Part shown: one piece after another, positions 37,171 through 49,836 of the stretch | How positions within the stretch are numbered: position 1 is the stretch's first letter | Layout of the letters: each line of letters begins with the position of its first letter | Source: Deltaproteobacteria bacterium | GTDB taxonomy: Bacteria > Myxococcota_C > UBA6777 | Assembly: GCA_002731275.1 (NCBI GenBank) | Contig: PCBK01000142.1 | Coordinates: 1-64,000, forward strand | Reading direction: 5' to 3' | Length of the DNA stretch: 64,000 nt | Translations under genes and position numbers: made by a program | Notes under the pieces: model-generated | What the model was told of the DNA's origin: nothing | What the model saw: only the letters and a program-made list of their open reading frames with translations | The model's database searches: none

Positions 37171-38604
37171 TTAACGATGCAACGTTGATTGTGCAAAGTC
37201 ACGCGCATTGATGCCATAACGCTGCATTTTTTGCCAAAAGTTTTTTCTGTCCATCCCACTCGCCTTCGCGGCTCTGGAGATATTTCCCATATATAAAGAC
37301 AACATCCGATTGATGTAGCTTTGTTCAAACTCCGACAAAATTCTGGATTTCTCTTCTTTGAAAGTGCCAAGTTCACCAGAGAGATGGATTCCACCGGGCT
37401 CACTTGGTTCATTTTCCTCGAAGGTGACCTGCTCTGGCATGATCACACTTCGATCACTCATCACGACGATCTGCAGGATCTTGTTTTCAAGCTCGCGAAT
37501 ATTCCCAGGCCACGGATAGTCGAGCATTTTTTCAATCGCCCTTGGCGCAAACACGAGCCCGACCTTTCCTGTCTGCTTGGCGAACTTACGCAAAAAATAG
37601 TCGGCCAACAAGGGGATGTCCTCTTTGCGATCACGCAAAGGAGGCAACGTGATCGGGATGATGTTTAACCTGTAATAGAGATCCTCTCGAAATTCTCCAC
37701 GCTTGGTCTCCGCGAGGAGATCACGGTTGGTCGCGGAGATGAATCGGACATCCGCCAATGAGACCTTGGTGCTCCCGATCGGCTTAAACTCTTTCTCCTG
37801 CAAAAACCGCAGCAGTTTGACCTGTAATTTAAGAGGGACTTCCCCGATCTCATCGAGAAAAAGAGTCCCCTCATTGGCTTCACTCACCAACCCATCGTAG
37901 TCCTGATGGGCATCCGTAAAGGAGCCCTTTTTGTACCCAAAGAGTTCAGTCTCCAAAAGGTTCTCAGGGAGCGCACCACAGTTCATCGTCACCATCGGCT
38001 TGTGGGAACGATCGGAGAGCTGATGAATCCCCTTCGCGATCAGCTCTTTACCAGTACCAGAGTCTCCGTAAATGATAACAGAAGCGTCTGTTTTTGCGAT
38101 CGAAGGGAGCTTTTTGAGGACATCCATTAACTGAGGTGATTGTCCTACGATATCGTTGAGGCCTTTGCTCCTCCCCAACTCCTCCCGAAGCTGATCGATC
38201 TCCTCAGCGAGCCTCGACGTATCGAGAACTGCGCTGATCCTGTGTAACAACACGTCTTTGTGTAGCGGCTTTGGAATGTAATCGACAGCACCGGCGTTAA
38301 GAAAACGAACAGCGCTATCGATGCTCCCATGAGAGGTCATCAAGACGACGGGGATGTGTGGTGCGTGCTTTTTGATCGCGGCGAGGAGATCTTCACCTCC
38401 CATCAACGGCATCATCACATCGGAGAGGACCATGCGGATCGAGTTATCTTCATCTTTCTGAAGATATTCAAGGGCTTCGCGACCATTGGAGGCAAAAACA
38501 AGATCATACGTCTGCCCCCGACACATCACCTCGATCAGGCGCCACGTGTGCTTGTCATCGTCTGCAATCAAGATCTTGACGTGTTTTGGTTCAGCTTGTG
38601 TCAT
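37171..38604 (-). CDS. NtrC-family response regulator with a variant GAFTGA loop
   Basis: A 477-residue protein. The receiver domain (about 9-125) has the acidic pocket ADDD and the phospho-acceptor Asp in LSDVMMP. The AAA+ domain (about 150-390) has Walker A GDSGTGKELIAKGIH, Walker B GTLFLDEIGE, and the sigma-54 contact loop reading GSFTDA instead of GAFTGA. A Fis-type helix-turn-helix lies at the C-terminus (NISRAAKASGMDRKNFWQKM). It should activate sigma-54 promoters after phosphorylation by a kinase not found here. The altered loop could weaken or change sigma contact. ATG 38604 has GAGGAGA; an upstream start is less likely. It is divergent from the structured RNA region. Confidence 0.92.
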   Translation of the reverse strand: MTQAEPKHVKILIADDDKHTWRLIEVMCRGQTYDLVFASNGREALEYLQKDEDNSIRMVLSDVMMPLMGGEDLLAAIKKHAPHIPVVLMTSHGSIDSAVRFLNAGAVDYIPKPLHKDVLLHRISAVLDTSRLAEEIDQLREELGRSKGLNDIVGQSPQLMDVLKKLPSIAKTDASVIIYGDSGTGKELIAKGIHQLSDRSHKPMVTMNCGALPENLLETELFGYKKGSFTDAHQDYDGLVSEANEGTLFLDEIGEVPLKLQVKLLRFLQEKEFKPIGSTKVSLADVRFISATNRDLLAETKRGEFREDLYYRLNIIPITLPPLRDRKEDIPLLADYFLRKFAKQTGKVGLVFAPRAIEKMLDYPWPGNIRELENKILQIVVMSDRSVIMPEQVTFEENEPSEPGGIHLSGELGTFKEEKSRILSEFEQSYINRMLSLYMGNISRAAKASGMDRKNFWQKMQRYGINARDFAQSTLHR

Positions 38605-38718
38605 CCATTCTCCTCTTTTCAACATCGACGCCCAGATCGTGGCATAAAAGCCTCAACCACCATGGTAAAATAACCCCATCGCATATTTCATGAATGGATA
38701 GTAGGAGATTATTGGATT

Positions 38719-38847
38719 TTGTCAAGATAAAACGGAGAGAATATAAGGGTATTTTCACCACACTCAGCATGGCAAAAAAAGGCGTGCTCAAAAAAAGAAG
38801 CGCGTGGATTCATTTTTGTATTGACAAATGGCTCCACAGGGTATACT
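38719..38847 (+). promoter_or_regulatory. Two plus-strand sigma-70-like promoters ahead of the structured RNA
   Basis: The first candidate is TTGTCA (38719-38724) and TATAAG (38742-38747), 17 bases apart. The second is TTGACA (38821-38826, a perfect -35) and TATACT (38842-38847), with a shortish 15-base spacer. Transcripts would start near 38754 and 38854. Both point to the right, away from the divergent NtrC-type gene. They are well placed to drive the hairpin-rich RNA that follows. Confidence 0.6.
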
Positions 38848-38853
38848 TTTTGC

Positions 38854-39182
38854 GTGTAGAGTTAATCTACAAAACGTGGACGACAAGAACGGTTTCCCCC
38901 AAAACCAGTTGTCCGCGTCATGGGTGGACGTTATTGTGATACAGGATAAAAGTGTACCCCCTCCACTTCTGTAGACGATTTCGTCTGTGAGGATTGATGA
39001 CAACTTATAGCAGGTTCCCCCTCACCTGTCTTGTTTTCAATCGTAACCCCTAGACAGTACAGCGTTTGCACGAGAACCCCTTTCTCCACTTACGCTAGCT
39101 ACACTGACTAGTCAAAAAAGCCGTTGATTCTTTAAAGCGAGCACCCCTGCTTTCTTTAAGTGTCAGCGGCTTTTCCTTTTCT
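38854..39182 (+). ncRNA. Putative multi-hairpin RNA with C-rich apical loops
   Basis: No open frame with a ribosome site lies here. By hand-pairing, 38855-38871 forms a small stem. 38874-38918 forms an 11-bp stem (two G-U), a 5-prime bulge and a 5-bp apical stem with loop CCCCCA. 38941-38972 gives 4 bp, bulge GATAA, then 5 bp with loop TACCCCCTC. 38973-38986 is a plain hairpin. 38992-39042 gives 11 bp with one mismatch, bulge CTTATAG, then 5 bp with loop TCCCCCTC. 39061-39096 gives 5 bp, then 5 bp with loop CCCCT. The terminator hairpin has loop GAGCACCCCT. C-runs begin at 38896, 38957, 39017, 39047, 39077 and 39144. Promoters lie just upstream. I recognise no known family (not tmRNA, 6S, SRP or RNase P). 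The role is unknown. Confidence 0.6.
39116..39182 (+). terminator. Rho-independent terminator of the hairpin RNA
   Basis: AAAAGCCGTTGA (39116-39127) pairs with TCAGCGGCTTTT (39163-39174), 12 bp with one G-U pair. An inner stem AAAGC/GCTTT (39134-39138, 39149-39153) is capped by the C-containing loop. A T-rich tract follows (TTTTCCTTTTCT). On the other strand the hairpin is followed by six T, so it may work both ways. Confidence 0.7.
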
Positions 39183-39432
39183 CCCCCCACAATGCACTTT
39201 CAACATCATCTTCCAAGCAAACTCAAAAATGAGCATCTTCCTCGAAAAGAACCCCTCAAGAAGGGTTGCAATGATGGCTCCATCTGTGTTACAACAGACG
39301 GTGAAACAATGCCCCAGAATGGTCCAATCCGAACATGGATCCGGTCCTCGAAAAGACCCGAGCGAGGCCGCAGTACAAAGAAGCAAACCATGCGAAAAAG
39401 CAAGGTTTTCGTCTATATGTGAGGAGTGCAGA

Positions 39433-42400
39433 ATGCGCCATCCGCAAGCGGATGAATTATACGAACGTTATGTCAGTAGCCCCGAGTTTGCTCAGCTTTG
39501 TAAAGAAGCCTGTGACCGATCACGAGGAAAGAAGGGATCTTCCTACACCTACGTCAGGCGCAAACTCAACAAACTGCTCGGAGATCATCAAGATCACCTC
39601 GGACAACAAGCCTTTCAACGGTTATTCCAGCGCCTCTATATCTCCCTCATGAAGGTCGTCTCACAACAGACCAAGATCTCCTTCACAGGCGTCTTTGATG
39701 CGAGTCAACACTTTGGAGCCCCTCAACGCGCTGAGAACATCGTCGCGCAACTCTTTGCGCCCAAACCTTCCAATGATCTGTTCCCACAGCTCGATCAGCA
39801 GATGACCCCTCCCGCCCCCTCCTTCATCGATCAGACTTACTACAGCGACACAGAAGAACCACTCACCCCACCAGACTTTACATCGGTATCCTTTGAACAC
39901 AATCTCTCATCACCACACAACGGACACAATCAGCCCTCACTGATCGATGAGATTCTCGCAGAAGGACACCACGAATACGACGTCACCGCTAACGAGTTTA
40001 ACCCTGAAAATGCAGACCTCCATCCATCTCCAGCGGACATGGCCCTCGCGATGGACCCAAGCATCCCTGATTACCGATACGCCTCTGTCGAGATCGAAGT
40101 ACCTGATCCTCTCTCCTCAGAGGACCTGGACGAAAATCCCATCACACTTCATGTCGACGCTCCGCAGCTCGATCCATCCAGCCAACAAACACTCAACGCA
40201 CTCGCCGACAAACTCGACGAAGAGGCCTACCGTTCACAAAACCAACTCCCCGAGATGCCTCCACAACAAGCTCCCCCTCCGTCTGGGCTTGCTCAATCAC
40301 TCCCCATCGGCTTGATCCCTTCGCCTGCTGGGTACTCGACTTCAGGCTCGTATCCACAGTACCCAAGCCCGCTGCCCATGAACGCAGGTGTCCCTGATCT
40401 CTCGAAAATCAAAAACAAAAACTCGCGTTTTGAGACCGTCTCCTTCCCCGAAGGCTTCTATCTCCTCGATCAAAAGACCGGCGCGTCCTGGTTTATCTCA
40501 GCTGGCAGCCACCAATTTGTCGCCTGCCAGTTTGAAACCGCTCCACAACCAGCACACAATCCATCTCCGCTCCCCAACGACAGCACCACATCCCTGGACA
40601 ACGGTCCTCAACACCCTTCTCCCATGCCCCTCTTCTCCTCCCCAAGTGCATCGTCCTCATCACTCAACGCTATCTTGTCGACATCTCCCATGCCCAAGAT
40701 GAGCGCAAAATCAACGATGCAAATCAACCAAAATAGCTCCGACGACATCTTACCCACAGAGCTCTTTCCAACACTTGTCCCTCCCAAGTATTTGGACATC
40801 CAAAAGAAACCCTCAAGCTCTTACCCAACACACGCCTCACAACCATTCGATCAAGAGGTGCTGCAAAACTTCCCCTACCCCATCGCGCGATTGTTTGACG
40901 CATTTCTCGTCGAAAGTGATCCTCGCATCCGTTTGCGCTTGCTCCTGCTCGTCTTCAACCTCGTCCTCAAGTACTCGACGTTCCCACTGATCGTACAGTA
41001 CTTAAAGAGCAGCCACCTCAACGATGTAAGCGCTTACTACGCACTACAAAGGCTCCAATCTTCGCAGCTCAGCACATGGCTGGAGTTCGCTCGTCATGCG
41101 TTTAACCTGCTACAAAATGACCCCCCTCCCTTTGCAGCCAAAGCCCTGCACACGTTCAGCAAACTCGAATTTGAACGACTCCCACAAGAGCGCTTTTTGT
41201 ACACACAGCGCTTTCTCGACCCACTCGGTAAAGAGCGCTCCAGCCACCTCCAACTCGGTCTACTTGAAGCGCTCGTCGTATACAGAGACTCTTTTGTCCA
41301 CGGCTTCAACCCCACGCTCGAACAAGCCCAGGAAGATCTCGTCGTCTACGAACCCCTGCTCCGCGAGATCCTTCAGGAGATGACATGGGTCGTCGACTAT
41401 CCATTGCTCTACACCTTCCGCAAACAAGAAGATGGCACCTACCTGACATACCCTCTTATGGGAATGTATCCAGAACAAACGACCCCCATTGAGTTACCTG
41501 CGCATCCAGATCTGCCCACGACCAACCCTCTCTTTCTGTACGATCCAGACCATCCAGAAACCCCTCTATCACTCTACCCGCTGCTGATCACGGCCTTACC
41601 TCTTGTGGACGACAGCCCGATCCCGTCGCAACGCCATGCACTGTTCTTCTTCAACGACTGTAGCAGCGAAAAGATCAACTACCACAACCTCTGGCAATAT
41701 CCGTACTCCACAGACGAGAGCGTCGAGTATTGGCAGACAGCGCTCGCGCAAAAATCCATTTCCCCGGCGAGCAGTGGCCTCTCCGAAGCTGGACTCTTCG
41801 AATATTCAGAGTTCTGGACAAAGCGCAATCTCGAACACCTGATCCACGGTCAACAGTATCTTCCTGAGCTGACCATCCCTCGCCGGGCAGCACAACGCCC
41901 ACTGCTCGATTTTTATGCAAGTCGATTCCTTGGGATGATCATCCTTGGTGCTTCGGGAATTGGGAAGACATCCTTCCTCGCGGCTGAGGCCGAGCGACGA
42001 CTCACACAACAACAACCTGTCCTCCTGCTCAACGGACATGATCTATCCTCCTCAAGTATCCAAGAGAAGTTCGCACAGATCTTCGGCTTCTCAGATGTAC
42101 ACCCGAACCCCACGTTCGAAGACATCATCCAACACTTTCCACCTTACCTGACACAAGAGAAGCCTCTGCTGATCTTCTTCGACGCGATTGAAGAACATGA
42201 ACATCCAGAGGAATTCTTTTACCAACTCGATGAGTTTGTGCTCTCCATCGCCCAAGGCCCCTTGTGTGAGCGAGTCAAGTTGGTCCTCTCTCTGCGAAGC
42301 GACTTTTACCACAGCTTACGCCACAAAGGACCGCTCTTTCCGCAATCACAGCATTACTTCTTCAGCTTTGAAGATCCTCGCCTCGGATTTCGACCAAGCT

Positions 42401-44841
42401 CCATCACGCTGGAGTTGCCCCCCTTCCAGCTCGACGAATTGGAGGTCGCATACCAACGCTACAGAGACTTCCATAGTGATCACGGTATTGCTCCCTTCAG
42501 CCCACGAACGAACTGGCAACAATTGCCACAACACAGCCGCACACGAACGCTGTTGCGTCACCCCCTCTACCTACGCCTCGCGCTCGCGACCTTCTGCCAG
42601 CAAGATCTACCAGAGGACCTCACACTCGAAGAGCTGTTGCATCGCTTCCTCGAACAAGTCATCGAAGAGAAACACTCTCCCCTCCCCGTACCAGAGCGAC
42701 TACAATTTCTCCGCGCGATGACGAAAATATTCGATGAGCACGGACGCAATACACTCTCCAAAGAAGTGCTCTACTTCTCCGACGTGCCACAACTCAGCCG
42801 CGCGGTACAAAATGCCCACACAGACTCTCCATACATCCAACTGCTGCATCTCGGTATTATCCTGGAAGAATGGCACCCACGAGTCTGTCTTGTGCGCTTC
42901 ACCGCGGAGACACTCTTTCACTTTTTCCTGACACGACACTGGCTCCAACAAAACGGACACCTCACACTTCCAGAACTTCTCGACGCGCTCAAACACAGCG
43001 ACCTCCCCAACCTTTACTTCTTTGCCTGGCTCCACATCCTCGAACAGTCCAACGAAAACGCCAGCGAGTTGGTCCGTTGGATTTACAAAAATATCAACGA
43101 GACCTCACCGTTCCTCAAGTCGTTCTTGACGCAAATTATCCAGTCCAACGACCCCAAACAACATATCTTCTTACAAGAACTCCTCCTGCAAGCAGACGAA
43201 GCCATCCTGTTCGACGTCTTAACTGTCGTCGATCAACTCCTCAACTCCGGCTTTGAAGAATCCGCGAGTCAATTACTCGATGCGATCTTGACGTACTCCA
43301 CAGGCCCACAGGTCAACCCTCTACGCAGCGAGATCTTGTTTAGGCAAGCACGCATCGCCGAACTTCACGGCGACGTAGAGCACGCAATGTTGCTGTTCAA
43401 GCACAGCCGTACAGAAGCAGAGCTCCACGACCTGCCGCGACTCCTCACACACGCATTCCTGAGACTCGCATCACTATACCGAGCCCACAACGACATCTCC
43501 TCTTCAGCTGAGGTCCTTCATGAAGCTCTGATCCATCTCGATGGGACACGACACGGCAGCCTAAAAGCGCGTGTGCTCCGCCAACAAGGAAACCTTTCTT
43601 ATGAGCAAGGTGAGCTAAACGAAGCGCTCTCATCTTACGAAGAGAGTCTGCACCTGGATGAAGAAGCCGACTATGCCCGCGGTATCGCAGCTTCTTTGAG
43701 TAACCTCGGAACTGTATTGGGTTCGCGTGGGGATCTCGACGGTGCATTGGAACACTACCACCGATGTATGCGCATTCAACAAAGCTTGGGAGATCGCAAG
43801 AACGTCGCGACGACGCTCAACAATATCGGGATCATCCTGAAAAACCAGGGCAAAACGTCAAAGGCCTTGCAACACTTTCAGCGCTCACTCAAACTCCGCG
43901 AAGAGATTGGACACTTCAAAGAGATCGTCACCTCACACAACAACATCGCGTTGATGCTCAAACAACAAGGTGATCTTCAAGGTGCCCTCGAACACCAACG
44001 CCAAAGCTTGCTCATCAAGAGCCGTTTGCAAGATTCACGTGGTATCGCGTCTGGACTGCAACATATTGGTGATCTGCTCTACCACCTTGGCGAGCTCGAC
44101 GAAGCCCTTCAACACTATCAACAATCTTGTGACCTATTTGAACAGCTGGGTGAACTCGATGGATGGGCTTCTACGCTCCTCTCGCTGGGACAAATTTGGG
44201 AAGAGAAAGGCCAACTGACCGAAGCGCTCCCCTATTACCAACAAGCACAACAACATTACCAACAAGAAAACGACACCGAGCATTTGGCAGTCTCCATGCG
44301 GATGTTTGGTCGTCTCAAAGCCCAACAAGGCGAACTAAACGAAGCCCTTCAGGAGGTCCATAAAGGCCTCGCGCTCGCAGAGAGCGAAGGCAAGCGCAAA
44401 GAAGTCTTGCAGTGCATGCTAGAGCTCGCCCAGATCCGACTGCTCCGACATGAGTTGCCTGCGACGCGGGCATATATCGACAGAGCACTCAGCCTGAGCG
44501 AAGAGATCGAAGCCGAAACATGTCGCAAAGACGCCTTGTGTCTTCTTGTTCGCGTTGCCATCCGTGTCGAGAACTGGCTGGAGGTCGAAGAGAACCTCCA
44601 GCAGCTCGAAAATATGCTCGAAGAGTTGTCCTTTGATCCAACCCCACACCATACAGTGTGGGCGCTGTTCGAAGCCGCTCAGTTCTATCAGGATCTCGAC
44701 CACACGAGAGCGCTAGGACTCTCAGATCTCGCGATCCAAAAAATGGGCAGCCGACACTTTATCAAACGACAAGAACTCGAAGAATTGTACTTGGAGCTTC
44801 AAAACACCCCACACACGCCCCACCCTGTTCGCAATCTGTAA
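39433..44841 (+). CDS. Very large P-loop ATPase (STAND/NACHT-like) with C-terminal TPR array
   Basis: An 1802-residue protein. ATG 39433 is chosen because GAGGAG lies seven bases upstream; the frame is open for a further 273 bases with no good site. Residues 1-85 form a helical domain. About 90-450 is Pro/Ser/Gln-rich and disordered. From 450 to 820 is a mixed domain not recognised. The P-loop GASGIGKTS is at 839, the Walker B-like LLIFFDAIEE near 912, then VKLVLSLRSDFY. From about 1300 to the end lie roughly twelve TPR units (for example ALEHYHRCMRIQQSLGDRKNVATTLNNIG). The layout matches STAND signalling ATPases, which oligomerise on binding a ligand to the repeats. No effector enzyme domain was seen, and neighbours give no defence context. 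Confidence 0.8.
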   Translation: MRHPQADELYERYVSSPEFAQLCKEACDRSRGKKGSSYTYVRRKLNKLLGDHQDHLGQQAFQRLFQRLYISLMKVVSQQTKISFTGVFDASQHFGAPQRAENIVAQLFAPKPSNDLFPQLDQQMTPPAPSFIDQTYYSDTEEPLTPPDFTSVSFEHNLSSPHNGHNQPSLIDEILAEGHHEYDVTANEFNPENADLHPSPADMALAMDPSIPDYRYASVEIEVPDPLSSEDLDENPITLHVDAPQLDPSSQQTLNALADKLDEEAYRSQNQLPEMPPQQAPPPSGLAQSLPIGLIPSPAGYSTSGSYPQYPSPLPMNAGVPDLSKIKNKNSRFETVSFPEGFYLLDQKTGASWFISAGSHQFVACQFETAPQPAHNPSPLPNDSTTSLDNGPQHPSPMPLFSSPSASSSSLNAILSTSPMPKMSAKSTMQINQNSSDDILPTELFPTLVPPKYLDIQKKPSSSYPTHASQPFDQEVLQNFPYPIARLFDAFLVESDPRIRLRLLLLVFNLVLKYSTFPLIVQYLKSSHLNDVSAYYALQRLQSSQLSTWLEFARHAFNLLQNDPPPFAAKALHTFSKLEFERLPQERFLYTQRFLDPLGKERSSHLQLGLLEALVVYRDSFVHGFNPTLEQAQEDLVVYEPLLREILQEMTWVVDYPLLYTFRKQEDGTYLTYPLMGMYPEQTTPIELPAHPDLPTTNPLFLYDPDHPETPLSLYPLLITALPLVDDSPIPSQRHALFFFNDCSSEKINYHNLWQYPYSTDESVEYWQTALAQKSISPASSGLSEAGLFEYSEFWTKRNLEHLIHGQQYLPELTIPRRAAQRPLLDFYASRFLGMIILGASGIGKTSFLAAEAERRLTQQQPVLLLNGHDLSSSSIQEKFAQIFGFSDVHPNPTFEDIIQHFPPYLTQEKPLLIFFDAIEEHEHPEEFFYQLDEFVLSIAQGPLCERVKLVLSLRSDFYHSLRHKGPLFPQSQHYFFSFEDPRLGFRPSSITLELPPFQLDELEVAYQRYRDFHSDHGIAPFSPRTNWQQLPQHSRTRTLLRHPLYLRLALATFCQQDLPEDLTLEELLHRFLEQVIEEKHSPLPVPERLQFLRAMTKIFDEHGRNTLSKEVLYFSDVPQLSRAVQNAHTDSPYIQLLHLGIILEEWHPRVCLVRFTAETLFHFFLTRHWLQQNGHLTLPELLDALKHSDLPNLYFFAWLHILEQSNENASELVRWIYKNINETSPFLKSFLTQIIQSNDPKQHIFLQELLLQADEAILFDVLTVVDQLLNSGFEESASQLLDAILTYSTGPQVNPLRSEILFRQARIAELHGDVEHAMLLFKHSRTEAELHDLPRLLTHAFLRLASLYRAHNDISSSAEVLHEALIHLDGTRHGSLKARVLRQQGNLSYEQGELNEALSSYEESLHLDEEADYARGIAASLSNLGTVLGSRGDLDGALEHYHRCMRIQQSLGDRKNVATTLNNIGIILKNQGKTSKALQHFQRSLKLREEIGHFKEIVTSHNNIALMLKQQGDLQGALEHQRQSLLIKSRLQDSRGIASGLQHIGDLLYHLGELDEALQHYQQSCDLFEQLGELDGWASTLLSLGQIWEEKGQLTEALPYYQQAQQHYQQENDTEHLAVSMRMFGRLKAQQGELNEALQEVHKGLALAESEGKRKEVLQCMLELAQIRLLRHELPATRAYIDRALSLSEEIEAETCRKDALCLLVRVAIRVENWLEVEENLQQLENMLEELSFDPTPHHTVWALFEAAQFYQDLDHTRALGLSDLAIQKMGSRHFIKRQELEELYLELQNTPHTPHPVRNL

Positions 44842-44966
44842 ACGCTTGGGTTGTACCGCTCGTTGCTCCTTGAGACATTGCTTTCGACATATGTTCTTGT
44901 TAAAGTACATAGAGTCTATTGTTCACTTTTATCATGTGATGTCCCGTGTGGGCAGAGAGTAAGCTT

Positions 44967-45641
44967 ATGTTTAAGTATGTTCTTTGTTTTTGCGTTTGTT
45001 TGTTTCCCATGTCTCCAGCCCTCGCATACACTCCCGACACAAGCCAACAACCACAACGTTCTGGGTGGTTGATCGATACGGAGCTTCGTCCCCAAAACGA
45101 ATCGCGACAGACGCTCGTCGCCAAAGCTTCGAAGAGCGATCAAAAATACTACAAAAAGCTTCGCAAGAGTTTGCGTCAAAATTGGCGCACCAATCGATTT
45201 TGGTGGAGTATCGAGCTTGGTAACTTCATGCACTTCTTTGTCCCTTTCAAAGAAAACAGACCCACCCACAAAGCCTTTGATTACAACGGATTTCTGATCG
45301 GTGGTCGCTGGGGGTATGGAGGCAAAAACCTGATCGTAACAGGCGACATTATCTACGCAATGAGCGATGACATGACCCTCCAACTCGGTATCACCGTAGG
45401 ACTCCCGTTGCGCTCGTTCTTCATCGTCGAAGCAGGCACAGGACTCACCTTCATCTTCGCTGACGACTTCGAAAGTGGTATGTCCCTCCACATCCCCATT
45501 GATGTAGGTTTCACTGTCCGTATCCCCCTCAAAAACATCAGCTTAGGTCTCAGGACAGTTGGCTCTATAGCCTTCAGCGCAGACCAAGGCGGCGGCGTCA
45601 TGATGAGTCTTCGCGTGAGCCTTGTCCTTGGCATGATGTGA
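44967..45641 (+). CDS. Secreted, probably outer-membrane beta-barrel-like protein
   Basis: A 224-residue protein. The start ATG 44967 begins a signal peptide (MFKYVLCFCVCLFPMSPALA) with AxA-type cleavage. The mature N-part is basic and helical (KYYKKLRKSLRQNWRTN). From about residue 75 alternating strands rich in Gly and aromatics follow (YNGFLIGGRWGYGG, LQLGITVGLPL, FFIVEAGTGLTFIF, SLRVSLVLGMM), which looks like a small barrel ending in a hydrophobic residue. No specific family was recognised. It leads a rightward series with the PEGA protein, a lipoprotein and a kinase. Confidence 0.6.
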   Translation: MFKYVLCFCVCLFPMSPALAYTPDTSQQPQRSGWLIDTELRPQNESRQTLVAKASKSDQKYYKKLRKSLRQNWRTNRFWWSIELGNFMHFFVPFKENRPTHKAFDYNGFLIGGRWGYGGKNLIVTGDIIYAMSDDMTLQLGITVGLPLRSFFIVEAGTGLTFIFADDFESGMSLHIPIDVGFTVRIPLKNISLGLRTVGSIAFSADQGGGVMMSLRVSLVLGMM

Positions 45642-46948: not shown

Positions 46949-47998
46949 ATGATACGAAGTCTCGTGTATCTGTTGCTCATCACAACCACATGGGCTTTTG
47001 CCTGCTCCGAACCCCAAAAGTCATGTACCTACAACAGCGACTGTGGCGAAGGATACTTTTGTGTAGAGACTCTATGTGTTCCAAGCTCGGAAGTACGAAC
47101 CTGCTCGACAAAGCAAGACTGCCGCTCCGGTGAAGTGTGCTTTGAGAGGAGGTGTTTTCCCGAGGTGTGCACACCTGGAGAGACCAAACCATGCAGCGGT
47201 GAGGAGAAGGGAGAGTGTTCGCCTGGAGTGAAGATCTGCAACAAAGCAGGAAGTGGCTACACACCCTACTGTCTTGGGCTTGTCAAGCCCACCGAAGAAG
47301 GCTCCCAATGTGATGGCCTGGACAATGACTGCGATGGTGAAGTCGACGAAGGTCTCGATTGTAGCTGTCAAAAAAGAGACACACGCTCTTGTCGCGTGAG
47401 CGGGAGTTTTTCCAGTGGCCATTGCCGTGCGGGTACACAAATTTGTGAAGAGAAGGATGGAAAACTTCAGTGGGGACCATGTCTCGGTCGTGTCTCGACG
47501 AAAGACCTGCTTCCGCTCGGACTCACTTGCTCGATCACGGACCTGAATTGTGACGGAGACGTCGATGACAATGATGGAAAGTCCATCATTTACACAGAAC
47601 GTCCAGTCTCCTGCCGGTGCCTGCATACAGACAAACCACGTGCATGCAAACGATTCTCCGAGACAAACGACTCCTCCTGTAATATGGGGACACAATACTG
47701 CCTACGTGAGAGCGCTCTGCGCAAAGGGGAAGACCCCACTGTCGCAAGCAGCCACTGTAAAGAAGGTGACAATTGCCTTTGGTCGGACTGCAAAGCCAAC
47801 ACCTCGGAAGTCAAAGGAGAAGAGTGTGACGGAAAAGACAACGACTGCGACGGAAAAATCGACAACATCCCTGGTACAGACACCCCCTACTTCGAAGCGT
47901 GCAATGACACAGAGAAAGATTGTATTGCGACCTGCAAAGACGGCAGCCTGAGCCTGTGTAAAGACAAAAGCGGCGCCGTTTGCCAAACCAAACCTTAA
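46949..47998 (+). CDS. Lipoprotein with MopE-type motifs
   Basis: A 349-residue protein. ATG 46949 follows AAAGGAG and gives a short signal peptide (MIRSLVYLLLITTTWAFAC) with Cys at the lipobox. Small Cys modules (TYNSDCGEGYFC, STKQDCRSGEVC) come first. Two clear MopE-type motifs (CDGLDNDCDGEVDEG near 125, CDGKDNDCDGKID near 293) and one degenerate copy (ITDLNCDGDVDDNDG) follow. It lies 22 bp after the PEGA gene and 14 bp before the kinase gene, so the four genes from 44967 probably share transcripts. Its exact role is unknown. Confidence 0.8.
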   Translation: MIRSLVYLLLITTTWAFACSEPQKSCTYNSDCGEGYFCVETLCVPSSEVRTCSTKQDCRSGEVCFERRCFPEVCTPGETKPCSGEEKGECSPGVKICNKAGSGYTPYCLGLVKPTEEGSQCDGLDNDCDGEVDEGLDCSCQKRDTRSCRVSGSFSSGHCRAGTQICEEKDGKLQWGPCLGRVSTKDLLPLGLTCSITDLNCDGDVDDNDGKSIIYTERPVSCRCLHTDKPRACKRFSETNDSSCNMGTQYCLRESALRKGEDPTVASSHCKEGDNCLWSDCKANTSEVKGEECDGKDNDCDGKIDNIPGTDTPYFEACNDTEKDCIATCKDGSLSLCKDKSGAVCQTKP

Positions 47999-48012
47999 CA
48001 ATGGGGGAAACC

Positions 48013-49836
48013 ATGTCCAACGCATCACAGGAAACACAGTGCCCACAGTGTCGTAGTCATGTACAATACCCAGCCTCAACGACGACCGGAGAAGAAGTTC
48101 GCTACTGTCCGACATGCCGACTCCCCCTTGTACACGTCGCAGGCAAATATAAACTCGAACGCGAGCTGAGTGAAGGTGGTTGCGGTATTCTTTACCTCGC
48201 CCGTCACGTCCGATTGAACATGGAACCCATCAGGGTCGTCAAATTCCTCAAACCCGAGCTCTTCGAAAAAGCCAACGCAGGCAAACGATTCGCCTACGAA
48301 GTCGAGCTGACCTCTGCACTCTCGCAGCGAAATGACCACATTGTACGAATCTATGACGACTTTGGCGAGCTCGACAAACTCGGCCACTACTACGTCATGG
48401 AGTATCTCGAAGGACAAACACTCTCCGAGCTGCTCGAAAATAACAAGGATTTGTCACTCCACACCATCAGCTATATCTTCGAACAACTGTGTCTCGCCAT
48501 CAAAGAAGCCCACGACGCCGGTGTCGTACACAGAGACCTGAAGCCCGACAACATCTTCTTGATCAGGCGCGGTGATGATCCCTACTTCGTCAAAGTCATC
48601 GACTTTGGGATCGCGAAAGACTTCGCCTCCGAGCACGCCACCAATCTCACACAAGGTGTTATCGGTACACCTGAGTACATGTCCCCTGAACAATGTACCG
48701 CGCAACCTATCGATCACCGCTCGGATATTTACTCGATGGGGACCATCTTGTACGAAATGGTCGTCGGATTCACACCTTACCTTCCTCCTAACCTCACGCA
48801 AAATGTCGACCTGATGTATCTCGTCTTCTCGCAGCTTAGTACACCACCCAACCCCCCAAGCCAGGCTGCCTCAGACAAAGAGATTCCAGACGCCTTGGAA
48901 CAACTCATTCTCAAAGCTCTCGCCAAAAAACCCGAAGAACGACAACAAACCGTCGATGAGTTGCTTCGGGAGTTGAAGGCCTTCCAGCAAACACATCTCG
49001 GCCTCATCACTTCCAACCGCCACACTCTCGACATCACCCCGATGCCTACGCAAGAGGCGAGTACATCCACCTCCCAACCTGTTGTCGAGACCCCCAAACC
49101 ACGCCCGCTCCCAACAGCCGACCCCGTTCTCCCCGCTCCCATCCCAGTCACGCCAAAGCCCCCAACTCCTATCACACCTTCCTTTGAGGAAGACGCCCCT
49201 GTCACAAAGCCACCTTCATCGAAGGGCTTGTTTTACGGCACCATCGGTGCGTTTGTCATCTTCCTGCTCGCCGGTACCTATGCGCTCTTTGGCACACGCG
49301 CCCAAACAATCCCGCCGACAAAACAACGACAGCGAAAAATCGCCAAAAGGCCGACCAAGCCACCAGTAAGAGAACGTCTTGAGCCTCGTGTCCCCGCTCC
49401 CCAACGCCCCTCATTACCCCGAGTGGCCGCTCGACCTGTCAGACGAGTGACAAAGAGAAAAAGGCGGCGAAGACGCCGGCGGACAAGGATGATTGTTCTC
49501 AAGAGAAGAACGAAGTCAAAGACCAATATTGAGATCTCACAAAAAGCTAGAACACCAGGATGTCCGATGGATCCAAAGGGTGGAAAGTGGTTTCGTATCA
49601 ACGCGAGCCCTTCTGGTCTTGAGCTCAAAGCTGTTGGAGGACGTGCACTTCGCACGGGAGGACATCACTGTGTCCTACGCAAGGGTACACGTCGTGTGCG
49701 CGTCGTCGTGACAGGACTGAATATTCAGGAGTGTCTGTTTCTCCTCCCCACCCACAAACGTGTCATTCGCATCCGACTCAAAAAATCGACGGGGTTGGGA
49801 GGTGGACTGGATGAAAACCAAAACTACTGCCTTTAA
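48013..49836 (+). CDS. Transmembrane Ser/Thr protein kinase with N-terminal zinc ribbon
   Basis: A 607-residue protein. ATG 48013 is taken, preceded by GGGGGA; an in-frame ATG four codons earlier is possible. A zinc ribbon (CPQCRSH and CPTCRLPL) is at about 9-40. The kinase domain (about 48-320) has VVKFLKPELF, HRDLKPDNIFLI, DFGIAKD and YMSPEQC. A Pro/Thr-rich linker and one membrane helix (LFYGTIGAFVIFLLAGTYALF) follow. The outside part begins with about 70 very basic residues (KRKRRRRRRR) and ends in a 95-residue small domain with four Cys. A basic tail suits binding to peptidoglycan or lipopolysaccharide; this is inference. Confidence 0.92.
   Translation: MSNASQETQCPQCRSHVQYPASTTTGEEVRYCPTCRLPLVHVAGKYKLERELSEGGCGILYLARHVRLNMEPIRVVKFLKPELFEKANAGKRFAYEVELTSALSQRNDHIVRIYDDFGELDKLGHYYVMEYLEGQTLSELLENNKDLSLHTISYIFEQLCLAIKEAHDAGVVHRDLKPDNIFLIRRGDDPYFVKVIDFGIAKDFASEHATNLTQGVIGTPEYMSPEQCTAQPIDHRSDIYSMGTILYEMVVGFTPYLPPNLTQNVDLMYLVFSQLSTPPNPPSQAASDKEIPDALEQLILKALAKKPEERQQTVDELLRELKAFQQTHLGLITSNRHTLDITPMPTQEASTSTSQPVVETPKPRPLPTADPVLPAPIPVTPKPPTPITPSFEEDAPVTKPPSSKGLFYGTIGAFVIFLLAGTYALFGTRAQTIPPTKQRQRKIAKRPTKPPVRERLEPRVPAPQRPSLPRVAARPVRRVTKRKRRRRRRRTRMIVLKRRTKSKTNIEISQKARTPGCPMDPKGGKWFRINASPSGLELKAVGGRALRTGGHHCVLRKGTRRVRVVVTGLNIQECLFLLPTHKRVIRIRLKKSTGLGGGLDENQNYCL

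Follow-up and report, generated by a model that had tools for sequence, protein, structure and literature searches.

Does the stretch between two divergent genes of this bacterium, one for an NtrC-type response regulator (37171-38625, minus strand; Pfam Response_reg, Sigma54_activat and HTH_8) and the other for a giant STAND/TPR ATPase (39433-44841, plus strand, by Pfam, with 39433 the likely start), encode a structured RNA, and if it does, what might that RNA do? The window, by which we mean the whole 64,000-nucleotide stretch of DNA that was analysed, comes from the genome called G000 below; G001 to G004 are four other genomes of the same phylum. The first-pass annotation had proposed that a regulatory RNA with serial C-rich hairpin loops is made here.

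The RNA locus and its predicted fold

Both of the rightward promoter matches that had been reported are present: an upstream candidate, TTGTCA-17-TATAAG (38719-38747, plus strand), which is a consensus match in the window sequence alone, and the main candidate, TTGACA-15-TATACT (38821-38847, plus strand), for which an alternative 17-nt spacing gives TACTTT. A strict promoter scanner missed both sites, owing to the short spacer and to the final base of the -10 element. TTGACA promoters also lie 5' of the RNA in G001 (L070:1172) and G003 (L071:1205). At the other end there is, as had been claimed, an intrinsic terminator, domain T (39116-39174, plus strand), with a CCCC-containing apical loop (C-run at 39144), a U-rich tail and the 3' end CGGCTTTTCCTTTTCT. 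From the placement of promoter and terminator we infer that a non-coding RNA of ~325 nt, 38854-39178, is transcribed from the plus strand. A minus-strand RNA with GAGGGGG loops was considered and rejected, since the U-run terminators and recognisable promoters point to the plus strand. A coding role for the region was rejected as well: the longest reading frames of 38719-39185 are not conserved among the RNA copies, in agreement with the earlier remark that the region has no coding sign. Finally, mobile or phage origin was rejected after searches of plasmids, phages and viral contigs gave 0 matches.

The six C-runs begin exactly where they had been placed, at 38896, 38957, 39017, 39047, 39077 and 39144, and five of them are placed in hairpin loops by the minimum-energy fold of 38854-39178. 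In 100 dinucleotide shuffles the same count averages 0.18 and never exceeds 1, so the proposal of serial hairpins with C-rich loops stands. The 329-nt fold has an energy of -106.4 kcal/mol (z = -6.7), and none of 100 shuffles is equally stable. From its 5' end the predicted plus-strand fold consists of a hairpin without a C-loop, TGTAGAGTTAATCTACA (38855-38871); hairpin 1, with the loop CCCCCA (38874-38918; C-run 38896 unpaired with P 0.95); hairpin 2, whose apical part is AAGTG-TACCCCCTC-CACTT (38949-38967; C-run 38957 unpaired with P 0.65); hairpin 3, with the apex CAGGT-TCCCCCTC-ACCTG (38992-39042; C-run 39017 unpaired with P 0.99); a linker that holds the sixth C-run (39047-39050); domain D, made of an outer stem, an inner stem and the apex GAGAA-CCCCT-TTCTC (39050-39111; C-run 39077), which is found in 5/5 genomes; and the terminator. 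The linker run is only partly unpaired (P 0.42); the first-pass annotation had likewise described one run as unpaired. That annotation also gave the hairpins a common plan with a 5' bulge, and here it needs amending: the conserved asymmetric bulge in 39050-39111 is on the 3' side, and bulges are thus not 5' alone. No second cluster of five such hairpins in 250 nt was found on either strand of 464 kb of the genome. The plus strand of the window as a whole (1-64000) has a run bias, with 346 CCCC versus 123 GGGG and 86 CCCCC versus 17 GGGGG.

Relatives, covariation and neighbouring genes

Is this arrangement kept by evolution? BLASTN with the window RNA found no relatives outside its own genome. 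A covariance model of a single hairpin picked out L070 (G001) and L071 (G003), each with an RNA whose terminator follows the same plan, and a model of the terminator domain matched G002 and G004 with E about 1e-4. A two-domain model, trained on the same five sequences, gives a single strong match per genome in all five phylum genomes (E 1e-11 to 1e-17). It gave 0 matches in 381 other genomes under stricter filters, with which distant relatives could be missed. The single-hairpin model also hit L066, L067 and L068, which were rejected as chance matches in coding sequence, and hits of a double CCCCCTC pattern, some of which were read, appear to be mostly coding or dispersed repeat.

Two C-loop hairpins are universal, domain D directly 5' of the terminator and domain T within it. 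Additional upstream C-loops number three in G000, two in G002 and G004 and none in G001 and G003, where other pyrimidine loops (e.g. CUCUCCUUUA) take their place. The D loop is CUCCCCCUCU or UGCCCCCUCU, and CCCCU in G000; the T loop is UCCCC(C)UC in G001-G004, and in G000 it is CACCCCUG, a C-run without the preceding U. The C-runs are unpaired in all five orthologues (mean P 0.68-0.94), C-loop counts exceed those of shuffles in all five (the observed count is reached by at most 1 of 100 shuffles), and each of the four orthologues tested has a fold much more stable than expected by chance (z -6.7 to -7.7). The RNAs of G002 and G004 share 97-100% identity, while the DNA on either side is mostly 75-85% identical.

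Covariation was measured on a helix-guided alignment of domains D and T that we made from the five sequences, which come from three genera; its sequence anchors are the outer D stem (the CT... and ...AG ends) and the T stem (AAGCCGTTG). Both sides have changed in 27 of 40 pairs, and 97.5% of the pairing cells are paired, figures that are optimistic, given an alignment adjusted to the structure and spanning only three genera. Shuffled alignments average 14.9 pairs changed on both sides with 73.2% of cells paired, and slid partners give at most 7 pairs and 44.8%. Domain D contributes 17 of its 20 pairs (7 of 10 in the outer stem alone are compensated) and domain T 10 of its 20. The stem sequences of D and T have thus been replaced across genera, with the pairing and the C-tips retained. 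The first-pass annotation had looked to relatives for covariation and for C-runs kept in loops; both are found there (the D and T C-loops in 5/5 genomes), and together they support its view of the locus as a regulatory type of RNA gene.

The genes around the copies tie them together. The NtrC-type gene adjoins the RNA also in G002 and G004 (66% identity to the window gene), where MinC-like and penicillin-amidase genes adjoin the NtrC-type gene in turn and an outer-membrane-type gene lies directly 3' of the RNA. In G001 and G003 it is the STAND/TPR ATPase gene that lies downstream of the RNA (orthologues 37-38% identical). The window has the NtrC, MinC-like, penicillin-amidase, ATPase and outer-membrane-type genes together, the last at 44946-45641 on the plus strand (34-37% identity to the G002/G004 genes; no hit in a Pfam search). 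The shared NtrC, STAND/TPR-ATPase and outer-membrane-type neighbours support orthology of the RNA copies, and an ancestral order NtrC - RNA - ATPase - outer-membrane-type protein, as reconstructed from these loci, would explain all five. In G001, tandem repeats of ~31-45 nt (e.g. CAGTGGCTTCTCGCTTCCAGTCAGAACATCC) begin directly after the RNA terminator (L070:1560-1730) and include a piece resembling a copy of the RNA 3' end (GCGGCTTCTTGCTT). Judged by sequence comparison, it is near certain that the locus is under selection at the RNA level and that it represents a real, conserved RNA family.

BLASTN within G000 did find a second locus (contig C3 near 556000; L002:1400-1560). The 19-nt apex of hairpin 2, AAGTGTACCCCCTCCACTT, recurs there exactly (L002:1504-1522) and sits in a terminator, 3' of another hairpin, GGCGAGGTTCCCCCTCTACCTTGCC; the locus has two terminator-like hairpins in tandem, AACCTCCTTTAGGAGGTTCGTTTTTT and then CGAGCTCGG..CCGAGCTCGTTTTTTT, and precedes a MoxR ATPase gene. 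No C-loop RNA was found upstream of the G003 MoxR orthologue, so the second locus is seen in G000 only. G000 also carries a dispersed repeat of ~75-80 nt, approximately CCCCCTCAGTCCGACCTACGGTCGTCCAGCTCCCCCTG..CAACTTCGTTGGCAAGGGGAGCGATGCAAGACCCCCTC, at more than 15 sites, on contigs C22, C27, C39, C50, C54, C56, C63, C69, C81, C83, C147, C158, C165, C177 and others.

Tests of pairing with ribosome sites, and competing explanations

The above comparisons establish what is conserved, but do the C-loops find partners at ribosome sites? The first-pass annotation had suggested that they could pair with the G-rich ribosome sites of many mRNAs, and this part of it was not borne out by tests on 464 kb of G000 (271-282 genes), whose Shine-Dalgarno sequence is of the AAGGAG type. 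None of 237 starts has GGGGG upstream. Neither GGGGG nor GAGGGGG is enriched before ATG, a count of little weight, since AGGAG, the positive control, is likewise unenriched; AGAGGGGG-ATG is in most genomes no commoner than its reversed-pattern control; and the duplex energies predicted for the loops against 271 starts are no better than those of shuffled loops. Since the start-motif counts, the AGAGGGGG-ATG counts and the duplex energies all failed, a general anti-Shine-Dalgarno role for the RNA is unlikely. Individual sites do show complementarity. The ribosome site of a Ser/Thr protein kinase gene in the window (47980-49836), UGGGGGAAACC, can pair with hairpin 1 over 11 nt without a mismatch, a match length not beyond chance; this gene is a possible predicted target, perhaps within a small target set. 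The ATPase start is complementary to the C-loops in one of three genomes, G001, with GAGGGGGG before the start.

We lean towards a stand-alone small RNA gene whose C-tips would base-pair with G-rich sites on a restricted group of mRNAs, altering their translation. By analogy with the RNAs discussed below, we have moderate confidence that antisense action through the C-loops is the best-supported mechanism. The gene's own sigma-70-type promoter would direct synthesis of a highly structured RNA of ~325 nt ending at the intrinsic terminator; its serial hairpins, the terminator loop included, would expose single-stranded CCCC/CCCCC(UC) tips; and these tips would act as redundant seeds on the G-rich sites, where pairing would block or alter translation as it does in sX13, 6C/B11, RNAIII and LhrC. 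The serial, redundant, identical tips would also suit a protein decoy that follows the logic of CsrB with another motif and titrates a putative protein that binds C-rich single strands. Species differ in the number of sites (2 to 5) but share the plan, and no general mRNA complementarity was found, both of which fit a decoy; against it, only two C-loops are universal, and a plain C-run would not need the specificity seen in the bases that flank it in the loop (CCCCCUC) and in the 19-nt hairpin that recurs at the second locus. On balance we regard a decoy as unlikely, and its more particular form, a phylum-specific sponge that captures a putative C-rich-binding regulator as an opposite-motif counterpart of CsrA/CsrB, as unlikelier still.

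A cis-acting leader or attenuator that controls the downstream ATPase and outer-membrane-type genes by terminator read-through would account for the strong, conserved terminator on the same strand upstream of the same genes. The next gene differs, however (ATPase in G000, G001 and G003, outer-membrane-type in G002 and G004), the terminator lies ~180-390 nt from the start, no conserved alternative anti-terminator helix is seen, and the second C-loop RNA precedes the unrelated MoxR gene; such a leader is therefore improbable. All copies are long and densely folded, as might be expected of a structured RNA that neither pairs nor titrates, for example a ribonucleoprotein scaffold, but conservation is centred on the exposed C-tips and the helices that present them, a pattern typical of seed loops, and we give a scaffold slightly less credence than a leader. 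That the hairpins are chance products of a C-rich intergenic region without function is hardly credible: the plus strand here is indeed rich in C-runs (346 CCCC against 123 GGGG), but covariation, the island of conservation, the five-genome distribution and the shuffle tests all contradict it.

Comparison with known C-rich-loop RNAs

In Rfam the window RNA matched no family, either at the gathering threshold or at E up to 10, and the relatives gave no match over the RNA (weak bxd_2 hits lie outside it); membership of any Rfam family, 6C included, was rejected, as no covariance model matched. The earlier statement that no known family fits thus agrees with Rfam, but it overlooked an established functional class: in other bacteria, there are small RNAs whose C-rich loops, among them loops of terminators, bind G-rich sites in mRNAs (PMC3771888, PMC10470900, PMC4132741, PMC9217828). 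We see in the window RNA a likeness of design to sX13, 6C/B11, RNAIII and LhrC, and claim no homology.

In Xanthomonas, sX13 has its own intergenic gene and forms a series of stable stems topped by C-rich loops, one of them with UCCCCCU, and it represses mRNAs that carry G-rich motifs near the start (PMC3771888). The window RNA likewise has apical 4C/5C loops on stable stems. By description the two are distinct: sX13 is 115 nt long, has three loops and is found only in Xanthomonadaceae, whereas the family described here is ~325 nt long, has 2-5 loops, belongs to another phylum and has a C-loop inside its terminator. The 6C RNA/B11 of Actinobacteria pairs two C-run-loop hairpins with G-tracts at ribosome sites (PMC10470900). 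The D and T pair of 5/5 genomes is a similar set of two C-run-loop hairpins, and the second locus is similar in this respect, but the window RNA is longer, with other stems, another host lineage and no Rfam 6C match. LhrC of Listeria repeats its UCCC motif redundantly, both in a hairpin loop and in the loop of its terminator (PMC4132741). Our family also repeats UCCC, once in the terminator loop (in G001-G004; the C-run of G000 lacks the preceding U), but is set apart by description from LhrC, which is short, multicopy and confined to Firmicutes, by having one ~325-nt copy plus, in one genome, one related locus. UCCC(C) seed motifs of the staphylococcal RNAIII and RsaE bind G-rich Shine-Dalgarno sites (PMC9217828); the C-rich motifs are shared, whereas the architecture is unrelated and no general Shine-Dalgarno complementarity is seen here. 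Many repeated hairpin tips within one RNA also recall the CsrB/RsmY sponges, but the tips of the window RNA hold CCCC/CCCCCUC and lack GGA, so that no CsrA-type ligand is implied.

This is apparently a structured RNA family new to description, in a phylum represented here by five genomes. In function the RNA probably belongs to a known kind, the small RNAs with C-rich loops, rather than to a new one. The lack of G-rich ribosome sites in G000 makes mRNA pairing and protein titration clearly testable against each other, and the family would carry the convergent class of C-rich-loop small RNAs into a new lineage, in an enlarged serial layout with a C-loop in the terminator.
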